A DNA stretch of 64,000 nucleotides, from positions 372,001 through 436,000 of the forward strand of contig NZ_FPCH01000002.1 in assembly GCF_900116175.1 (NCBI RefSeq), read 5' to 3'. Shown here piece after piece: positions 17,209-25,669 of the stretch (position 1 is its first letter; every line of letters begins with the position of its first letter). Under the pieces are notes generated by a model. It did no database searches and was not told the origin of the DNA. It saw only the letters and a program-made list of their open reading frames with translations. The DNA is from Hyphomicrobium facile (lineage in GTDB: Bacteria > Pseudomonadota > Alphaproteobacteria > Rhizobiales > Hyphomicrobiaceae). The position numbers were made by a program, and so were the translations under genes.

Positions 17209-18642
17209 GTGCATATCGCTAAATCATCCTCCGTCCACGTCATTGGTGCAGGGCTCGCAGGCTCGGAAGCAGCACATCAGATTGCTGCTACGGGTACGCC
17301 CGTCGTGCTGCACGAGATGCGGCCGGTGCGCTCGACCGAAGCTCACAAGACTGACGGTTTTGCCGAACTCGTCTGCTCGAATTCATTTCGTTCCGACGAT
17401 TGGGAGAATAACGCCGTCGGACTTCTGCATGAGGAACTTCGCCGTGCAGGGTCGCTCATCATGGCGGCGGCCGATGAGCACAAGTTGCCGGCGGGCGGCG
17501 CTCTCGCCGTCGATCGCGATGCGTTCTCGGCGGAAGTGACTGCGCGGATTTCCGCAAACCCGCTGATCACGATCGTGCGCGGCGAACTCGACGGCCTTCC
17601 GCCGGAAGACTGGAGCAACGTGATCATTGCGACGGGACCGTTGACGTCTCCGGCGTTGAGCGCTGCGCTCGCGACGCTGACGGGAGAAGATTCTCTCGCG
17701 TTCTTCGATGCGATTGCGCCTGTCATTCATCGCGATTCAATCGATACCGAGATAGCGTGGTTTCAGTCGCGTTATGACAAAGCCGGCCCTGCGGGAACCG
17801 GCGCGGACTATCTCAACTGCCCGATGTCGAAAGACGAATATGAAGCGTTCATTGATGCGCTTCTCGCGGGCGAGAAGACGTCCTTCAAGGAATGGGAAGC
17901 GTCCACGCCCTACTTCGACGGCTGTCTGCCAGTCGAGGTGATGGCCGAGCGCGGCCGCGAAACGCTTCGGTTTGGGCCGATGAAGCCGGTTGGCCTCGAT
18001 GATCCGCGGACAGGACGTTGGCCGTATGCGGTCGTTCAGCTTCGCCAGGACAATGCGCTCGGGACACTATGGAACATGGTCGGCTTCCAGACGAAGCTGA
18101 AGCATGCCGAACAGGTGCGTATTTTCCGGATGATCCCGGGTTTAGAGAACGCGGAATTCGCGCGTCTTGGCGGTCTCCATCGCAACACGTATCTCAATTC
18201 GCCAAAGCTTTTGGATCGCTCGCTGCGGCTCAAGGCAATGCCGCGGCTGCGCTTCGCGGGACAGATTACGGGTGTGGAAGGCTATATCGAGAGCGCCGCC
18301 ATCGGCTTGCTTGCCGGTCGCTTCGCTGCGGCGGATGCGATGGGGGTTGTGAGCGATGCGCCGCCTGCCACGACTGCGCTCGGCGCACTGCTCGATCACA
18401 TCACGGGCGGCCATCTCGTCAGCGACGACAGCGAGCGCGGTGCGGCCCGCTCATTCCAGCCGATGAACATCAACTACGGTCTGCTTCCTGATCTCGACGC
18501 CAATCCGACCCACGGTCAGGACGGCAAGAAGCTCAAGGGCCCGGAGCGTGGTCGCGAAAAGAAGCGGGCGATGTCGCGCCGCGCGCTTGCCGATCTCGCG
18601 GGTTGGCTCGGCGAGACGGCGCCTGTGAAGCAATCGGCTTGA
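17209..18642 (+). CDS. trmFO: Methylenetetrahydrofolate-tRNA-(uracil-5-)-methyltransferase
   Basis: TrmFO makes ribothymidine at position 54 of tRNAs using methylenetetrahydrofolate and FADH2. The N-terminus has the FAD-binding [16 protein letters not shown], then [20 protein letters not shown]. The two functionally important cysteines are present: Cys56 in ELVCSNSF and Cys239 in [14 protein letters not shown]. The 477-residue length is normal. It starts at a GTG with GGAG five bases upstream. It stands alone, converging on the SGNH hydrolase gene. Confidence 0.95.
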
Positions 18643-18654
18643 GACGGCAGCCAG

Positions 18655-21105
18655 CTAGGGCGCCGCGTTCGTCGTTCCACCGGAAGCCGGAGCGAAACGT
18701 TGCGGCGTGAACTGCTCGCTGGCCGGTGGTGACGCTGCTGGCGGCGGCGCTGGTTCCGTCGACGTCTGCTGTGGTTCCCGGTTGAGCGGGCGGATTTCTA
18801 TGGGTGTCGCTGGAGGCGCATCAGTTGGAGGTGGTGCCGGTGATGGAACGACCGCTGTCTCCGTCGCAGGCGGCCCGACAACGGCTTCCGGCGGCTGCTC
18901 ATCCGAGGGCGCGCCGGAGGTAACTCCCACGGTCGCGCCGGACGTCGAGCTGTCGTCATCCGTGACGGGCGCCGTTGCGGCGGGCACGGCGGCGGCGGGC
19001 AATGCGCCGGTTACACCTTTTTCGCCACCCGACTTTGAAAGCACCGAATTGATGTCTGGAATTTGCGCATCGGGCTCGTCCGCTGGCGGTGCCGGCATAT
19101 CCTCAGGAGAAGGCACCGTGTAGCCCGTGGGATCGGCGTCGGGGCCCGCCCCATACTTCGCCAGAACGGACCGTGCCTTATCGACGACGGCATCGGCGAT
19201 GGCCGCTTGGCCTTCCGCCGTCGGGTGGAACGCGCCGGAGTACGTCGACGCCAAGATGAGCTGGAACGGCGCGAAGGGCTCGATGCGCAGAACCTTCGTC
19301 AACAGCCCGGCTTCGACGTGGAAGTTACCCGTCATGAAGGCATCGTTCGGCGTTCTGAACCATCGCTGACGCGGCGCGTAGGCCCGATAATCGGCGGGAT
19401 TATAGGGAGTCCATATTCCATCGATCTTGCGGGGAAGCCGGAGGTCATCGACCTCGCTCACGCCTTCGACGCTGAGGCCCGCGCATATTCCGCGTCCGAT
19501 GAAGGCACGCCTGTGCGTTTCAACGAACGTCCAGCCGAATTCGTAAGAGGTCTCACGCATCAGACGATGCAGCTTGTCGGCGAACCATGTGCCGAGCTTC
19601 AGCTTGGTGCGGTCCAACTGGAAGTCAGGCACGACTTCCATGCCGGAGTTGCCGTCGCCGCACATCTGGCTGCCGTCGCCTTCGAGGGCGAGGCCCGGAT
19701 AGGCGACGAGCAAAATGCGATCGCTTTCCTGCCAGGGCACGTAGAGGATGCTGTGAATGGCGCGGTTGAGCGACTTATAGCGTGCGCCCAACGTCGCGAG
19801 TTCGGCGGAAGCTTCGGCCTCGCCGTGGACCTGACCCAACCAGCCGCCGAGTTCACGCAACAGGGATACATTCGAGAGGACCGCATTCGCCAGAAGCCGC
19901 GAGAAGCCGATGTCGTTGCCGCCGATGGAGAGCAGCACGAGGTCGATCTTGCGTGCGTCATCCTGCGGACACTTACGAAGGACGATGTTCTGCAACTGGG
20001 GAATTTGGCCATTCATGTGAAAGGCCTCGGGTAGATCGAGTGGCTGCGTTTTATTGTTTCCGCATTGCGCTTCGGCGACCGCCGAGATTTGCGAGAGGCG
20101 CGGAGGGTTCGGAACCCATTCGTTGCCTTTGTACCGGAGAAAAAGTCCGTCTGTGATCTCTGCGCCTGCGCATGAGACGCCGACGAACGTGACGGCGCGG
20201 TGCGGATCTTCGACGGCGAGCTGCAATGCTGTCCGCAATTGTTCGGAATAGAGCGAACGATGGCAGGCCTGATCGAGCCAGCGTGCGTTCTCCTTGATGA
20301 AGGTTTTATCGCCGAGATCCCGCCACGGCCCGATGCGCGCGGGATATCCGGTGAGACCGCTGTAAAGTCCGATGGTGCTGTAGTCGGACGTCCGTTCGCG
20401 CGAAAAACGGACGGCGCGGTCGGGGTTGCCTTCGCCCGACGCGAAGCTGTCTCCCATTCCGGCGATGAGGACGTCGCGAACCTTGATCAGCGTCTTGGAA
20501 ACTTCCCGGCCGCCTATTTGGACGGTGACCATCGCGCCGCCCGGATAGGGTACGACGAAGCGCGCCGACTCGCTGCAGGGTTGCGTGATCGCATCGCCGC
20601 GAGGATTCTTGGAATCGCCGCGCGGCGCCGTGAGCCACGTGCACGTCAGCGTCGACGCGTCGTCCACGCCCTTGACCTCAACGATGACGGCGTGGTTCGA
20701 GGGGTTGATGTAGTCATCGTACGCATCGCACTTGAAGCGGTTGTTTTTCCAGCACGTCTTTTGGAACATGGATGCGGCCCAGCCGTCGCGGTCGCCGCTC
20801 TGGAGCGCGCGCTCTGCGGCTAAAACGGGCGTTGCCCGTTCTGTCGGCCCGAGCGCCCGATACGTTGCGCGGTGAGCTTCCGTATCGTGAGGGTCGACGA
20901 AGAAGCGGAACGGGTTTTCGAGCTTCCAGGTAATGACAGGCGAAGCAGCTTCAGCGCGGTCCGGCGTGATCAAGCTCGTCGCGACGAAGGCAAGCGAAAG
21001 GACCAGTGCCGCCGCATGCGACCACACTTTGCGGCTGGCTCGCGGGACATCCTGCGCCGCGCGCAAACGTACGCCTTTCAGCCCCCGTCTTGAAATTGAT
21101 GCCAT
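18655..21105 (-). CDS. Large secreted SGNH/GDSL hydrolase with a Pro/Ala-rich tail
   Basis: The product (816 aa from the ATG at 21105, which has GAGGG just upstream) has a long signal sequence with a basic N-region and hydrophobic core near residues 30-50, ending in DRAEA-AS. A region of about 160 residues follows. The SGNH hydrolase domain has the nucleophile motif MGDSFASGEGNPD (Ser220), SIGGNDIGFSRLL (block III) and FHPTAEGQAAIA (block V, His). Many Cys suggest disulfides. The last 170 residues are Pro/Ala/Thr-rich and probably a flexible tail. It may act on acyl or acetyl esters of lipids or polysaccharide outside the cell. The substrate is unknown. Confidence 0.85.
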   Translation of the reverse strand: MASISRRGLKGVRLRAAQDVPRASRKVWSHAAALVLSLAFVATSLITPDRAEAASPVITWKLENPFRFFVDPHDTEAHRATYRALGPTERATPVLAAERALQSGDRDGWAASMFQKTCWKNNRFKCDAYDDYINPSNHAVIVEVKGVDDASTLTCTWLTAPRGDSKNPRGDAITQPCSESARFVVPYPGGAMVTVQIGGREVSKTLIKVRDVLIAGMGDSFASGEGNPDRAVRFSRERTSDYSTIGLYSGLTGYPARIGPWRDLGDKTFIKENARWLDQACHRSLYSEQLRTALQLAVEDPHRAVTFVGVSCAGAEITDGLFLRYKGNEWVPNPPRLSQISAVAEAQCGNNKTQPLDLPEAFHMNGQIPQLQNIVLRKCPQDDARKIDLVLLSIGGNDIGFSRLLANAVLSNVSLLRELGGWLGQVHGEAEASAELATLGARYKSLNRAIHSILYVPWQESDRILLVAYPGLALEGDGSQMCGDGNSGMEVVPDFQLDRTKLKLGTWFADKLHRLMRETSYEFGWTFVETHRRAFIGRGICAGLSVEGVSEVDDLRLPRKIDGIWTPYNPADYRAYAPRQRWFRTPNDAFMTGNFHVEAGLLTKVLRIEPFAPFQLILASTYSGAFHPTAEGQAAIADAVVDKARSVLAKYGAGPDADPTGYTVPSPEDMPAPPADEPDAQIPDINSVLSKSGGEKGVTGALPAAAVPAATAPVTDDDSSTSGATVGVTSGAPSDEQPPEAVVGPPATETAVVPSPAPPPTDAPPATPIEIRPLNREPQQTSTEPAPPPAASPPASEQFTPQRFAPASGGTTNAAP

Positions 21106-21125
21106 CTGCCCTCTTCGCCTGGCCG

Positions 21126-21959
21126 TCAGACGCGACCTGACCAATGCGCGCGTGCAATACGCCACAATCGAGCGATAGGCGCGATTTCCAATATGTCGCG
21201 CGCCGGCTCGTGCCGAGGGTTCTGCAAAGCGCGAAAATAGGGCTCAACGAGGGCAAGCGGTAACAAAGGCGTTGTGAACGTTGCCGGTTTGCCCCTGAGA
21301 TGACGCCGCAGCTCAGCGAGAGCGCTGAGCCCTTCGCTCGCAAGCCACGCCGTTTGCGGGCGCCAATCTTCAGCTTCGTCAGCCGCAAACGGGTTCGGAG
21401 ACCTCGCCTTCGGCAGCAGTGCGCGCCCGCGCATCAGAGCATATGGCAGCTCCATTCCGATGCGGGCGAAGCCCGATGCGCGAGCTGCCGCGTCGATGAT
21501 GGGCTCGTCCAATTCGAGACCCAGGATCGCGCCTGCAAAAGCGAACGGCGTGCCATCGATGATGCGCAATGTTTCGCCGAGTTCCGCATCATCGGCCGGC
21601 GGTTCGCCATAGAGAGCGTGTGCGTGGGCTGCGAGATAATCTTCGATGACGCCGAGAGAGAGTTCGCGGCGCCGGATGACTTCTGCAAAGGCATCGAGCG
21701 TCGGATTGCCGGAGCGGCCGCTTTCGCCTCGGCTCAAAGACGCGTCCCGCCACCATGCGACGCGGATTTCGCCGAGCGCCGCCTCGCTGACTTGGCGCGA
21801 TATCCGTTCGATTTCGCCGGTAAATGCCGCGAGCGCGATGAGATCGTCACGGGCCTCGACGGGGGCGAAGAGCGCGGCGTAGTAACGATCCGGCGCTGAG
21901 GCGCGAGCGGCCAGCCGTACCGCATCGTAATCGATCGCTCGCGTGCCGGAGTTGCTCAC
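21126..21959 (-). CDS. Squalene/phytoene synthase-like protein, NDUFAF6-like
   Basis: The 277-residue protein has the all-helical squalene/phytoene synthase fold pattern (APDRYYAALFAPVEARDDLI, LGEIRVAWWRDASL, GFARIGMELPYALMRGRALL). The Asp-rich prenyl-diphosphate motifs DxxxD expected of true synthases are not intact: the first region reads FTGEIERI. That, and the absence of other carotenoid or hopanoid genes, point to the NDUFAF6/C8orf38 branch, which in mitochondria assists assembly of respiratory complex I. The next gene is an NDUFAF3-like protein. It starts at 21959, 37 bases from that gene's stop. Confidence 0.8.
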   Translation of the reverse strand: MSNSGTRAIDYDAVRLAARASAPDRYYAALFAPVEARDDLIALAAFTGEIERISRQVSEAALGEIRVAWWRDASLSRGESGRSGNPTLDAFAEVIRRRELSLGVIEDYLAAHAHALYGEPPADDAELGETLRIIDGTPFAFAGAILGLELDEPIIDAAARASGFARIGMELPYALMRGRALLPKARSPNPFAADEAEDWRPQTAWLASEGLSALAELRRHLRGKPATFTTPLLPLALVEPYFRALQNPRHEPARDILEIAPIARLWRIARAHWSGRV

Positions 21960-21996
21960 ACGTCACTCGTGGATTGAAGGCGGTTCCTCGCAGGCG

Positions 21997-22374
21997 TCAC
22001 GGCACTGCGATCAGCGCCGCTGCGATCGGTCGCTTTTCTGCGATCAGGATGTTGTACGTGCGCGCCGCGGCTCCTGTCGACATCGGTTCGAGGCCGATGC
22101 CGGCTTTCGCGAATGCGGAATAGACTTCGGGTGAAGGCCAGAGTTGCTTCTCGCCCGTGCCGAGCAGCACCGTGATCGGTGGATCGAGGCGGCTCAGAAG
22201 AAAGTCGATGTCCTCGGCATCGAGTTCCTCGGCGTTGGTCGCGCCCCATGCGTAGACGCCGCTCGGCAGACAGATAATCGAGCCGCGATGGCTCATCTCG
22301 GCAAAACGGAAGCCGCCGTTGCCGTAGGCCGTGATCGCCGTTTCATAGGGATAGCGGGCGACCTCGGGCGTCAT
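21997..22374 (-). CDS. Mth938-domain protein (NDUFAF3-like)
   Basis: The 125-residue protein matches the Mth938/DUF498 domain: GNGGFRFAEMSHRGSIICLP, then ITVLLGTGEKQLWPSPEV and the end TYNILIAEKRPIAAALIAV. The mitochondrial member NDUFAF3 is a complex I assembly factor, and location next to secDF is conserved in alphaproteobacteria. It lies 30 bases after the secF stop on the same strand, so it is likely the fourth gene of a yajC-secD-secF unit. Confidence 0.88.
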   Translation of the reverse strand: MTPEVARYPYETAITAYGNGGFRFAEMSHRGSIICLPSGVYAWGATNAEELDAEDIDFLLSRLDPPITVLLGTGEKQLWPSPEVYSAFAKAGIGLEPMSTGAAARTYNILIAEKRPIAAALIAVP

Positions 22375-22404: not shown

Positions 22405-23382
22405 TCAGGCCTTGGCGCGGCTCGTCTTGGTCTCGGCAACCGCCTTCGCAGCCGCGTCGCTCCAATCGCGCTTGACGCCGAGGTAGCCCAGCAGCGGGGC
22501 TGCGATGAAGATCGACGAATAGGTGCCGATCACAACGCCCAAGAGCATCGCGAGGTTGAAGCTGCGGATGACTTCGCCGCCGAAGATATAGAGCGAAATC
22601 AGCACGGCGATCGCCGTCACACCGGTCAGGATCGTGCGCGACAGCGTCTCGTTGATCGACAGGTTCAGAAGCTGATTGAGCTCCATTTTCTTGAACTTGC
22701 GCAAGTTCTCGCGAATTCGGTCCGACACGACGACGGTGTCGTTGACCGAGTATCCGAGAATGGTCAGCAGCGCCGCGACGGTCGAGAGATCGAATTCAAG
22801 CCGGAAAAAAGAGAAGATACCGGCGGTCAACAGGACGTCGTGGGTCAACGCCACGACGGCGCCTAAAGCGAACTGCCATTCAAAGCGGAACCAGACGTAG
22901 GCCACGATCGCCAAGATACCTGCAGCGACCGCGATGAAGCCGGTCATGCGCAACTCGCTCGACACGGCCGGGCCGACCACTTCGACACGACGCTGGACAT
23001 AGTCGGCGCTCGTTGCGTCAATCACCTTCTGGACGGCGGGCTGTTGAGCGGATTCCCCGCCTGGCTGCTCCTCAAGCCGCACAAGCACGTCGTTGGGCGT
23101 GCCGAACTCCTGAATCTGCACGTTACCGAGGCCTAGAGCGTTGAGCTTCTCACGCAGCGACGAGATGTCGGCATTGCCGCTCTTCGTCTGCAACTCGATC
23201 AACGACCCGCCCTTGAAGTCGACGCCGTAGTTCAGGCCGAGCGTCATGCAGAGCGCAATGGATACCGCCATCGCGACGATAGAGGCGATGAGCGCCTGCC
23301 CCTTGAACCTCATGAAAGGCAAGTTCAAGTCGTGCGGGAAGAAGTCGAACCCCTTGAAGACCGGAATGTATTTCATCAACAC
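22405..23382 (-). CDS. secF: Protein translocase subunit SecF
   Basis: SecF works with SecD at the SecYEG channel and uses the proton gradient to finish export of proteins. The protein has the short N-terminal helix, a periplasmic domain, and the conserved membrane motifs ALTHDVLLTAGIF and LTILGYSVNDTVVVSDRIRE. It is 325 residues long. The start is GTG at 23382, with GGAG nine bases before it; an ATG two codons later is possible. The stop of secD lies 12 bases upstream. Confidence 0.96.
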   Translation of the reverse strand: MLMKYIPVFKGFDFFPHDLNLPFMRFKGQALIASIVAMAVSIALCMTLGLNYGVDFKGGSLIELQTKSGNADISSLREKLNALGLGNVQIQEFGTPNDVLVRLEEQPGGESAQQPAVQKVIDATSADYVQRRVEVVGPAVSSELRMTGFIAVAAGILAIVAYVWFRFEWQFALGAVVALTHDVLLTAGIFSFFRLEFDLSTVAALLTILGYSVNDTVVVSDRIRENLRKFKKMELNQLLNLSINETLSRTILTGVTAIAVLISLYIFGGEVIRSFNLAMLLGVVIGTYSSIFIAAPLLGYLGVKRDWSDAAAKAVAETKTSRAKA

Positions 23383-23394
23383 GGAAGTGGTCTC

Positions 23395-25014
23395 CTAGAC
23401 CGGCACGGTTTGGATACGGCCCTTCGGCTGAGCCTTGAGCCAGAACGAGATGAGCAGCCTGACGACCGTCACGGACGCGAAGATCGACGTCAGAATGCCG
23501 ATTGTCAGCGTCACGGCGAAGCCGCGGATCGGACCGGAGCCCAGCCAGAACATGATGATGGCGCAAGCCAGGGTCGTGAGCTGACTGTCGGCGATCGTCA
23601 CGAAGGCGCGCTGGAAGCCAGCATCGATGCCGGAGATCGCCGTTTTGCCGGCCCTTAATTCTTCACGTATGCGTTCGTAGATCAGCACGTTCGCGTCGAC
23701 GGCCATCGCGACACCCAGGACCAAGCCCGCGATGCCCGGCAGCGTCAACGTGGAGCCGATGAGCGTCATGAGGGCGAGCGTCAAGATCAAGTGCACGACG
23801 AGGCCGACGCAGGCAAAAATACCGAACGTGCCATAGGCGAGGACCGTCAGAATGACGACCGCGATGCCGCCGATGATGCCGGCACGCTTGCCGTCGGCGA
23901 TCGAGTCGGCGCCGAGGGATGGACCGACGGTGCGCTCTTCGACGATCGTCAGCTTCGCCGGCAGCGAGCCGGACCGCAGCTGAACGGCAAGCCGGTTCGA
24001 GCTGTCGATGTCGAAGCTGCCCGAGATCTGGCCGGAACCTCCGAGGATCGGCTCGCGGATGACCGGCGCCGAAAGCACCTTGTTATCGAGCACGATCGCA
24101 AAAGGCTTGCCGACGTTATCTTTGGTGAAGTTGCCGAACTTGCGCGCGCCGCTTTGATTGAAGCGGAAGTTGATCACCGCCTCGTTCGTGCGGTTGTCAA
24201 AGCCCGGCTGCGCGTCGGCGAGGTCATCGCCCTGCACGACCGGCTGCTCACGCAGCAGATACTCCGACGGTCCCTCGCTCTTGTCGCCCGGATAGATCTT
24301 GTAGCCCGCGGGGATGGTCGTCTGCTTGGCCTCTTCGGCACTGAGCGAGGGATGCACTTCGTGGAACGTCAGCTTGGCGGTTTCGCCGATGAGCGCCTTC
24401 AGTTCCTTGGTGTCTTTCAGGCCAGGGAACTGGACAAGGATGCGGTCGGTGCCCTGGCGCACGATCGTCGATTCCGACGTGCCCAAATTGTTGACGCGGC
24501 GGTTGATCGTCTCGATGGAGGCGGCAGCGGCGTTGGAAATACGCGCGCGGAGACCTGCCTCAGTCGGCTTCACGATCACCGTGCCGGGGTCAGTTCCGGC
24601 CGCGACCTCGACATCGTAGCCGCCGGTGCCGAGCACAGCGCTGCCGATCGGCTGCCTGACCTTATCGAGTTGCTTGATCGCCGCGTCGCGCTCTTCCGGC
24701 TTTGCCAGCTTGACGATAAGTTGGGAGCCCTGGATGCCGATGCCGGTGAACCCAATTTTTGCATCGCGAAGAACCTTGCGCGATTCATCGCGCAGGTTGT
24801 TCATCCAATCCTTCTTGATCTCGTCCTGGTCCATGGCGAGCAGAAGATGCGCGCCGCCCTGGAGGTCGAGCCCCAGAGGCAGCTGCTTCTTCGGTACGAA
24901 TGATGGCCACGACGCGACCGTCTCCTTCGAGAAGAAGTTCGGCATTGCGACTGCGAAACCTGCGAGGCAGGTCAGCAGGATCAAGATGATTTTCGTGCGT
25001 GTGAATTGCAGCAT
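23395..25014 (-). CDS. secD: Protein translocase subunit SecD
   Basis: SecD has one N-terminal helix (KIILILLTCLAGFAVA), a large periplasmic P1 domain (residues about 30-350, with LGLDLQGGAHLLLAMD) and five C-terminal helices with the proton-path motif AMAVDANVLIYERIREEL. Its 539 residues are typical. It drives late steps of translocation with SecF. It sits between yajC and secF, the usual order. Confidence 0.97.
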   Translation of the reverse strand: MLQFTRTKIILILLTCLAGFAVAMPNFFSKETVASWPSFVPKKQLPLGLDLQGGAHLLLAMDQDEIKKDWMNNLRDESRKVLRDAKIGFTGIGIQGSQLIVKLAKPEERDAAIKQLDKVRQPIGSAVLGTGGYDVEVAAGTDPGTVIVKPTEAGLRARISNAAAASIETINRRVNNLGTSESTIVRQGTDRILVQFPGLKDTKELKALIGETAKLTFHEVHPSLSAEEAKQTTIPAGYKIYPGDKSEGPSEYLLREQPVVQGDDLADAQPGFDNRTNEAVINFRFNQSGARKFGNFTKDNVGKPFAIVLDNKVLSAPVIREPILGGSGQISGSFDIDSSNRLAVQLRSGSLPAKLTIVEERTVGPSLGADSIADGKRAGIIGGIAVVILTVLAYGTFGIFACVGLVVHLILTLALMTLIGSTLTLPGIAGLVLGVAMAVDANVLIYERIREELRAGKTAISGIDAGFQRAFVTIADSQLTTLACAIIMFWLGSGPIRGFAVTLTIGILTSIFASVTVVRLLISFWLKAQPKGRIQTVPV

Positions 25015-25102: not shown

Positions 25103-25441
25103 TCACGTTGCGTCTTTGACAGGTTCGCCCTTGGAGCGCACATCCAAAAGGGTGCTCTTCACGATGCGGACCTTCAAATTATCGGCAAGCTCGACCTCGA
25201 TTTCGTCGCTCGTGTCGGAAGCCTTCGTAACCTTGCCGAGCATGCCTCCGGCCGTGACGACCGTGTCGCCGCGGCGGACGGCGTTCAAACGCTCCCGGAG
25301 TTGCTTCGCGCGCTGCGATTGCGGACGGATCAGCAGGAAATAGAAGATCGCCAGCATCGCCAGCATCGGAATCAGAAGACCGCCCAGGGGGTCCATCGGG
25401 CTGGCTGCGGCGGTCTGCGCGAAGGCGGAAGTCGTAAACAT
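25103..25441 (-). CDS. yajC: Preprotein translocase accessory subunit YajC
   Basis: YajC is a small single-span inner membrane protein that associates with SecDF. The helix GGLLIPMLAMLAIFYFLLIRPQ is followed by the family motif QRAKQLRERLNAVRRGDTVV and a small beta domain. The frame is open to 25498, but the ATG at 25441 gives the usual length (112 aa). The shine-dalgarno (AGAGGA, 12 bases upstream) is more distant than usual. Confidence 0.93.
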   Translation of the reverse strand: MFTTSAFAQTAAASPMDPLGGLLIPMLAMLAIFYFLLIRPQSQRAKQLRERLNAVRRGDTVVTAGGMLGKVTKASDTSDEIEVELADNLKVRIVKSTLLDVRSKGEPVKDAT

Positions 25442-25669
25442 TGGAAAGGATAGTCCTCTGGATGCGATTGAAATAAGCACTACCGCCCCGGATCCCAATG
25501 GGCCGGAGGGATCAGCCCCTCAAATTCGGGCGGACTATAGTGGTCCGAAGCTCTTTTGCAACCTCGCATAGGGTCGTGAAAGGCCGTTGGCACTGACTTC
25601 CGCAGCGATTAAACACGCTTTTTCCCGGCTCGTAGCGCGCCGGGCTTTTCAGCCCCCTGGAATTCCTTA

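Follow-up and report, generated by a model that had tools for sequence, protein, structure and literature searches.

Genes and gene order at the locus

The window, as we call the whole 64,000-nucleotide stretch of Hyphomicrobium facile DNA analysed here, contains a run of five genes on one strand, in the order yajC, secD, secF, DUF498 gene, and NDUFAF6-like gene, with gaps of 88, 12, 30, and 37 bases between the ends of the open reading frames (Table 1). The initial annotation had placed the last two genes side by side and in linkage with secD-secF-yajC; its coordinates agree exactly with the ends of the open reading frames, and the linkage recurs well beyond this genome. Of the genomes from the window's order that were searched, 50 of 61 gave a match, and the 29 best-scoring loci of the order, the window's own excluded, contain secF in all cases and DUF498 in 27. 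Similarly, DUF498 is found in 78 of the best 80 named loci (of 591 confirmed), and 72 of these 80 combine DUF498 with secF, secD, and yajC, some of the loci being cut by contig ends. The arrangement with the sec genes seen in the window is not due to chance.

Table 1. Coordinates of the five-gene run in the window.
Gene	Position	Strand	Open reading frame	Profile match
yajC, first gene of the run	25103..25498	-		NCBIfam TIGR00739, 78 bits
secD	23395..25014	-		NCBIfam TIGR01129, 452 bits
secF, upstream in the same run	22405..23382	-		Pfam SecD_SecF_C; NCBIfam TIGR00966, 317 bits
NDUFAF3-like gene, DUF498/Mth938 type	21997..22374	-	125 aa	Pfam DUF498, 112.2 bits (cut-off 33)
NDUFAF6-like gene, squalene/phytoene-synthase fold without Asp-rich (DxxxD) motifs	21126..21959	-	277 aa, GTG start	Pfam SQS_PSY, 60.4 bits (cut-off 26)

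Across the class, 118 genomes carry both genes, and the distance between them is at most 0.4 kb in 16, 0.4-2 kb in 50, 2-10 kb in 25, and more than 10 kb in 7 genomes, while in 20 genomes they are located on different contigs. The tight pair in the window therefore represents one form of a looser linkage.

Several other genes recur close to the NDUFAF6-like gene. A trmFO-type gene of the GIDA family (window positions 17209-18642, plus strand) is a frequent neighbour, with a match to the L036 TrmFO in 119 of the 214 loci examined. An open reading frame of 836 aa for a GDSL-like esterase (18655-21165, minus strand) overlaps the end of the NDUFAF6-like gene, and GDSL-like esterase matches also adjoin the gene in loci L005, L007, L008, and L016. 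In 25 of 60 class loci (L034-L063 and L144-L173), a membrane-type protein of about 200 aa with a partial match to Urate_ox_N (PF06181, 52 bits) is encoded nearby, e.g. at L036:815-1429(+), and in some loci it is positioned between secF or DUF498 and the NDUFAF6-like gene. The flanks examined at the 29 order loci and the 80 named loci gave no match to this protein, which is a possible third partner.

Fold, motifs, and kinship of the two proteins

The protein encoded by the last gene of the run belongs to the SQS_PSY family (Table 1) and scores 31 bits with the HpnD equivalog model, far below the cut-off of 278.6. Its AlphaFold2 model, computed from a 28-row alignment, has a pLDDT of 92.6, and Foldseek matched this model to HpnC, CrtM, and a carbazole prenyltransferase, with TMq values of 0.68-0.78 over 14 matches at E <= 0.001. 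The window's genome encodes two additional SQS_PSY proteins from neighbouring genes (218 and 168 bits), which are of HpnC and HpnD type and keep the Asp-rich motifs. When aligned to the HpnD of its own genome, the window protein reads ERISR in place of DDVAD at motif 1, and ELPYA in place of DIDED at motif 2. The window protein retains the prenyl-synthase fold but has lost the catalytic motifs.

In an alignment of 109 rows (human NDUFAF6 and 108 family members), one row still has acidic residues at the first and last position of motif 1, and two rows have them at those of motif 2, which places the loss of the motifs already in bacteria. The lack of Asp-rich motifs in NDUFAF6 and its Candida relative NDU1 has been published (PMC8007014). 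Human and Arabidopsis NDUFAF6 are described as carrying AxxxD and AxxxH/SxxxH where the synthases have DxxxD, and the same source reports this pattern missing in fly NDUFAF6 and in the nematode protein (PMC12470011). Among our 109 rows, AxxxD occurs at the former motif 1 in 12 and AxxxH at motif 2 in 37, including the human protein. Since the pattern is variable, we did not treat it as defining NDUFAF6; the window protein does not have it.

For the comparison with the human protein, we used a reconstructed NDUFAF6 sequence. It comprises 333 aa, the length given for the human protein (PMC8007014), and has the wild-type residue at all 12 positions described in two studies of patients (PMC13036829, PMC9157758). 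This sequence scored 204 bits against profile A1, which was built from 28 bacterial NDUFAF6-like relatives, and with three further profiles it obtained 234 bits for the family (108 rows), 95 bits for HpnD (18 rows), and 22 bits for HpnC (15 rows). A 145-row tree splits off 36 HpnC-, HpnD-, or CrtB-like rows with an SH-aLRT support of 100. The window protein lies outside of this clade, and human NDUFAF6 falls among the bacterial family on the side opposite HpnC and HpnD, its placement within the family being loose. Two long rows, L159 from genome G121 and a second protein of genome G117, attach basally to the HpnC/HpnD group with a support of 89. By profiles and tree, and with the human sequence as reconstructed, the window protein is closer to human NDUFAF6 than to the prenyl synthases, and on these comparisons the gene is the predicted alphaproteobacterial orthologue of NDUFAF6.

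The family match and an overall fold like that of HpnC and CrtM could also be explained if the protein were an active prenyl synthase involved in making hopanoids or carotenoids, that is a variant of HpnC, HpnD, or CrtB. We consider this highly improbable and rejected it on motifs, tree, and distribution: both Asp-rich motifs are missing not only from the window protein but from nearly all of its relatives, the same genome has distinct HpnC- and HpnD-type genes that carry both motifs, and the tree divides the two groups with full support. In addition, the carriers of the NDUFAF6-like gene include several genomes (e.g. G106, G115, G141, G205, and G218), all of whose first-look candidates were scored, that have no second A1 match at E <= 1e-5, a criterion that detects HpnD-type genes, which score about 60-111 bits in the fetched loci, while HpnC-type genes score too low for certainty.

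In the neighbouring protein, the match to Pfam DUF498 spans the entire domain (profile positions 1-109 of 109), and the nearest solved structures by sequence are PDB 2fi9 (E 3.8e-27) and 2fvt (E 1.7e-26). A likewise reconstructed human NDUFAF3 sequence (184 aa, with G77 and R122) scored 68 bits with A2, the 28-row DUF498 profile. Judged by these scores, the second gene is the putative NDUFAF3 orthologue. The two identities proposed in the initial annotation, an NDUFAF6-type protein lacking intact Asp-rich motifs and a homologue of NDUFAF3, are thus borne out, and the first protein does not group with true prenyl synthases, the phylogenetic outcome that had been named as refuting the proposal.

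Co-occurrence with complex I across the Alphaproteobacteria

We surveyed 222 alphaproteobacterial genomes of at least 95% completeness, using NuoD, the NDUFAF6-like profile, and DUF498 as markers, and NuoH for doubtful cases. The NDUFAF6-like gene was present in 145 of the 200 genomes with complex I and DUF498 in 130, and neither was found in any of the 22 genomes without complex I. In the samples searched, the two genes are almost entirely restricted to genomes with complex I. Both genes were found in 118 of the 200 genomes and neither in 43; the NDUFAF6-like gene is missing from 55, and some of these absences may be misses, as first-look candidates were only partly scored in large genomes. 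Genomes without any match (41 for the NDUFAF6-like gene, 3 for NuoD, and 72 for DUF498) were counted as absences by subtraction from 222. The window's own genome has NuoD and NuoH, and its nuo run contains an unfused NuoD (the other nuo genes were named by eye).

The scoring of the NDUFAF6-like gene required care at the lower end. Rows with a DDxxD motif reach 111 bits with A1, and second matches within a genome reach 129 bits; weak matches were therefore sorted by the DDxxD motif, the tree, and further profiles. Removing 16 genomes with HpnC/HpnD-type matches only from the 161 initial positives left the 145 given above, about 77 of which were accepted on an A1 score of at least 160 bits. G232, first flagged for DDxxD, was scored as present after inspection of tree and profiles, as were G121 and G137 despite their long branches, and G196 and G078, in which a stop interrupts the gene. 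The NuoD-less genome G230 has NuoH and was scored with complex I. Of the 22 genomes counted as lacking complex I, 21 have no NuoH match, including G260, G267, and G277, in which a NuoH profile search in the absence of NuoD found none, and the remaining one, G186, has a weak match of 81 bits.

Genome size complicates this association. Of the 22 genomes without complex I, 21 measure at most 1.8 Mb and one measures 2.0 Mb. When the comparison is limited to genomes of up to 2.0 Mb, the NDUFAF6-like gene is present in 11 of 52 genomes with complex I and in 0 of 22 without (Fisher p = 0.027), and DUF498 in 9 of 52 and 0 of 22 (Fisher p = 0.050), so that the class-wide figure alone is modest. Genome reduction accounts for part of the class-wide association. 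This, together with the conserved linkage to yajC-secD-secF, would also fit two general factors for Sec or membrane proteins that aid SecDF-YajC-YidC and that disappear along with complex I merely through genome reduction. We regard such a role as distinctly unlikely, on account of the family examined below and of the human relatives, which are complex I factors (PMC6056720).

Native and foreign complex I in one family

A stronger contrast comes from one family, here the G246 family, represented by 120 genomes from 77 genera (1.9-7.7 Mb). The family is probably the Acetobacteraceae, an assignment that rests in part on its two nuo operon types; for the Acetobacteraceae, two types of complex I operon, nuo13 and nuo14, have been described (PMC10715153). 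A 27-row NuoD tree separates two types by a branch with 100/100 support: a native NuoD, and a foreign NuoC-NuoD fusion (NuoCD). All 12 genomes with only the foreign type were placed by the tree, and the NuoC domain was shown with Pfam in 4 of them. The length of the open reading frame proved unreliable as a sign of the fusion and was abandoned in favour of this tree, as the native NuoD of eight genomes lies in frames of 605-663 aa; a scan of seven of these eight showed no NuoC domain, and the same holds for an eighth scanned protein, from G077.

Of the 95 genomes with native NuoD, 92 have the NDUFAF6-like gene; outside of the 27-row tree, the native type was assigned by score and frame, and one of the 95, G291, has only a partial NuoD match. 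The gene is present in none of the 12 genomes with only the foreign NuoCD, and in none of 10 genomes that lack both NuoD and NuoH. Three other NuoD-less drafts of the family carry it, one with NuoH, one with a contig-end fragment, and one with neither of native type; among the NuoD-less carriers, G230 and G389 have NuoH, G298 has a piece of it at a contig end, and G342, an assembly of 160 contigs, shows neither NuoD nor a native-type NuoH. In the family, 90 of 95 carriers were checked by sequence, and G286, G337, G358, G368, and G385 were accepted on an A1 score of at least 155 bits. Eight genomes with both NuoD types by score and frame (G309, G325, G336, G344, G350, G369, G374, and G392) keep the NDUFAF6-like gene, and both types of G325 were placed in the 27-row tree.

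An HpnD-type gene with DDxxD is retained in all 22 genomes of the family that have no native complex I, and the NDUFAF6-like gene is absent from them; the latter therefore tracks native complex I rather than the hopanoid genes. This argues against a prenyl synthase, and the alternative outcome raised at the outset, co-occurrence with hopanoid genes instead of nuo, is not what we found.

The contrast between 92 of 95 and 0 of 22 genomes might be read as many independent cases, a reading that we discarded with the help of a SecD tree. This tree covers the window and 90 of the 118 SecD-bearing genomes of the family, i.e. all 25 without and 65 with the NDUFAF6-like gene. Native nuo changes once on it, and the NDUFAF6-like gene four times, namely on the same branch and in three separate losses; the contrast thus amounts to one concordant event, which does not constitute a statistical test. 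The separate losses occurred despite native complex I in G327, G338, and G393, where the matches that are left belong to the HpnD type or else show DDxxD. In G338, broken remnants of the NDUFAF6-like gene with stop codons were seen at G338:C1:289812-290130 (L313), with native NuoD and NuoH kept. From this distribution, native complex I seems to benefit from the gene without strictly depending on it. A similar suggestion has been made for certain animals without NDUFAF6 (PMC12470011).

The same family bears on a general Sec function. Here, secD is present in 118 of 120 genomes, including all 25 without the NDUFAF6-like gene, and genomes without native complex I reach 3.7 Mb, so that reduction is not the cause of the absence in this family. 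Pointing in the other direction, 18 of the 30 loci fetched from the family have a YajC match close to the gene, although secD is no longer nearby in the genomes checked and in several of them (e.g. G312, G325, and G353) lies distant on the same contig.

In this family, 107 of the 120 genomes have NuoD, yet just 2 were found to contain DUF498. The two genes are also separable in the class, where the NDUFAF6-like gene occurs alone in 27 genomes with complex I and DUF498 alone in 12. It is conceivable, if rather unlikely in our judgement, that one of the genes alone serves complex I, with the other retained in the cluster by gene-order ancestry; against this stand the equally complete absence of DUF498 from class genomes without complex I and the function of human NDUFAF3 as a complex I factor (PMC6056720). 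The earlier proposal of one unit holds in so far as both genes are restricted to complex I genomes in the class survey, and fails in so far as the pair is not obligate. Their distribution suggests that the two genes may act in the same process without forming one obligate unit.

Discussion

We consider it probable that the two genes encode orthologues of NDUFAF6 and NDUFAF3 that act as early complex I assembly factors and may be coupled to the Sec-dependent insertion of NuoH, the bacterial counterpart of ND1. Human NDUFAF3, NDUFAF4, and NDUFAF6 are required for normal ND1 synthesis (PMC6056720). By analogy, we infer an assembly role in bacteria, in which the NDUFAF6-like protein would most likely be a chaperone at the membrane surface during early complex I assembly, with NuoH as its probable client, and the DUF498 protein would most likely work at the adjacent step, when the Q module joins NuoH. 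Both proteins would then act at the membrane, where Sec-inserted NuoH meets the Q module, and their position behind yajC-secD-secF could allow their synthesis to coincide with that of the translocon through which NuoH is inserted.

With less confidence, we lean towards the view that alphaproteobacteria already possessed a non-catalytic NDUFAF6 that was linked to Sec and served specifically their native complex I, the form in which NuoC and NuoD are separate, and that the motifs were not lost upon mitochondrial recruitment. If true, the mitochondrial ND1 assembly step would have been inherited directly, and laboratory bacteria could serve as a system to study it. Mutations in NDUFAF6 cause Leigh syndrome (PMC9157758), and the molecular role of NDUFAF6 relatives in mitochondria is called unknown in PMC8007014. 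Should the bacterial gene prove to be a functional orthologue, simple bacterial genetics could address how it acts, and a part of complex I assembly would predate mitochondria. The distribution also supplies a clean natural contrast, in a clade whose genomes have either the NuoCD-type complex I alone or no complex I, and from which the NDUFAF6-like gene has disappeared. Among the matches listed for the open-licence literature, we found no bacterial experiments on either gene; the evolution of NDUFAF6 is treated in Lemire 2017, which other papers cite.

How does the locus compare with known systems? NDUFAF6 (C8orf38) in humans and NDU1 in Candida share with the window protein the squalene/phytoene-synthase fold without DxxxD. 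Unlike them, the window gene is bacterial and located in a sec run, and even the residual motif pattern is gone (ERISR/ELPYA). HpnC and HpnD, the squalene and presqualene diphosphate synthases, have the same Pfam family and fold, but differ from the window protein by the retained Asp-rich motifs and by falling into a group of their own in the tree. The second protein shares its full-length DUF498 domain with NDUFAF3 (C3orf60) and the Mth938/DUF498 family. As for the gene order, Saada et al. (Am J Hum Genet 84:718) reportedly linked NDUFAF3 in 2009 to a bacterial SecF/SecD/YajC cluster and to C8ORF38, another name for NDUFAF6. The linkage attributed to that work is the one seen in the window, so the NDUFAF6-like partner of the NDUFAF3-secDF cluster, put forward as the lead in the initial annotation, is not new: the connection was probably reported in 2009, and the window adds an ordinary new instance to an arrangement already known. 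What the present analysis adds to this linkage are the counts against the presence of nuo, the type of nuo, and genome size.
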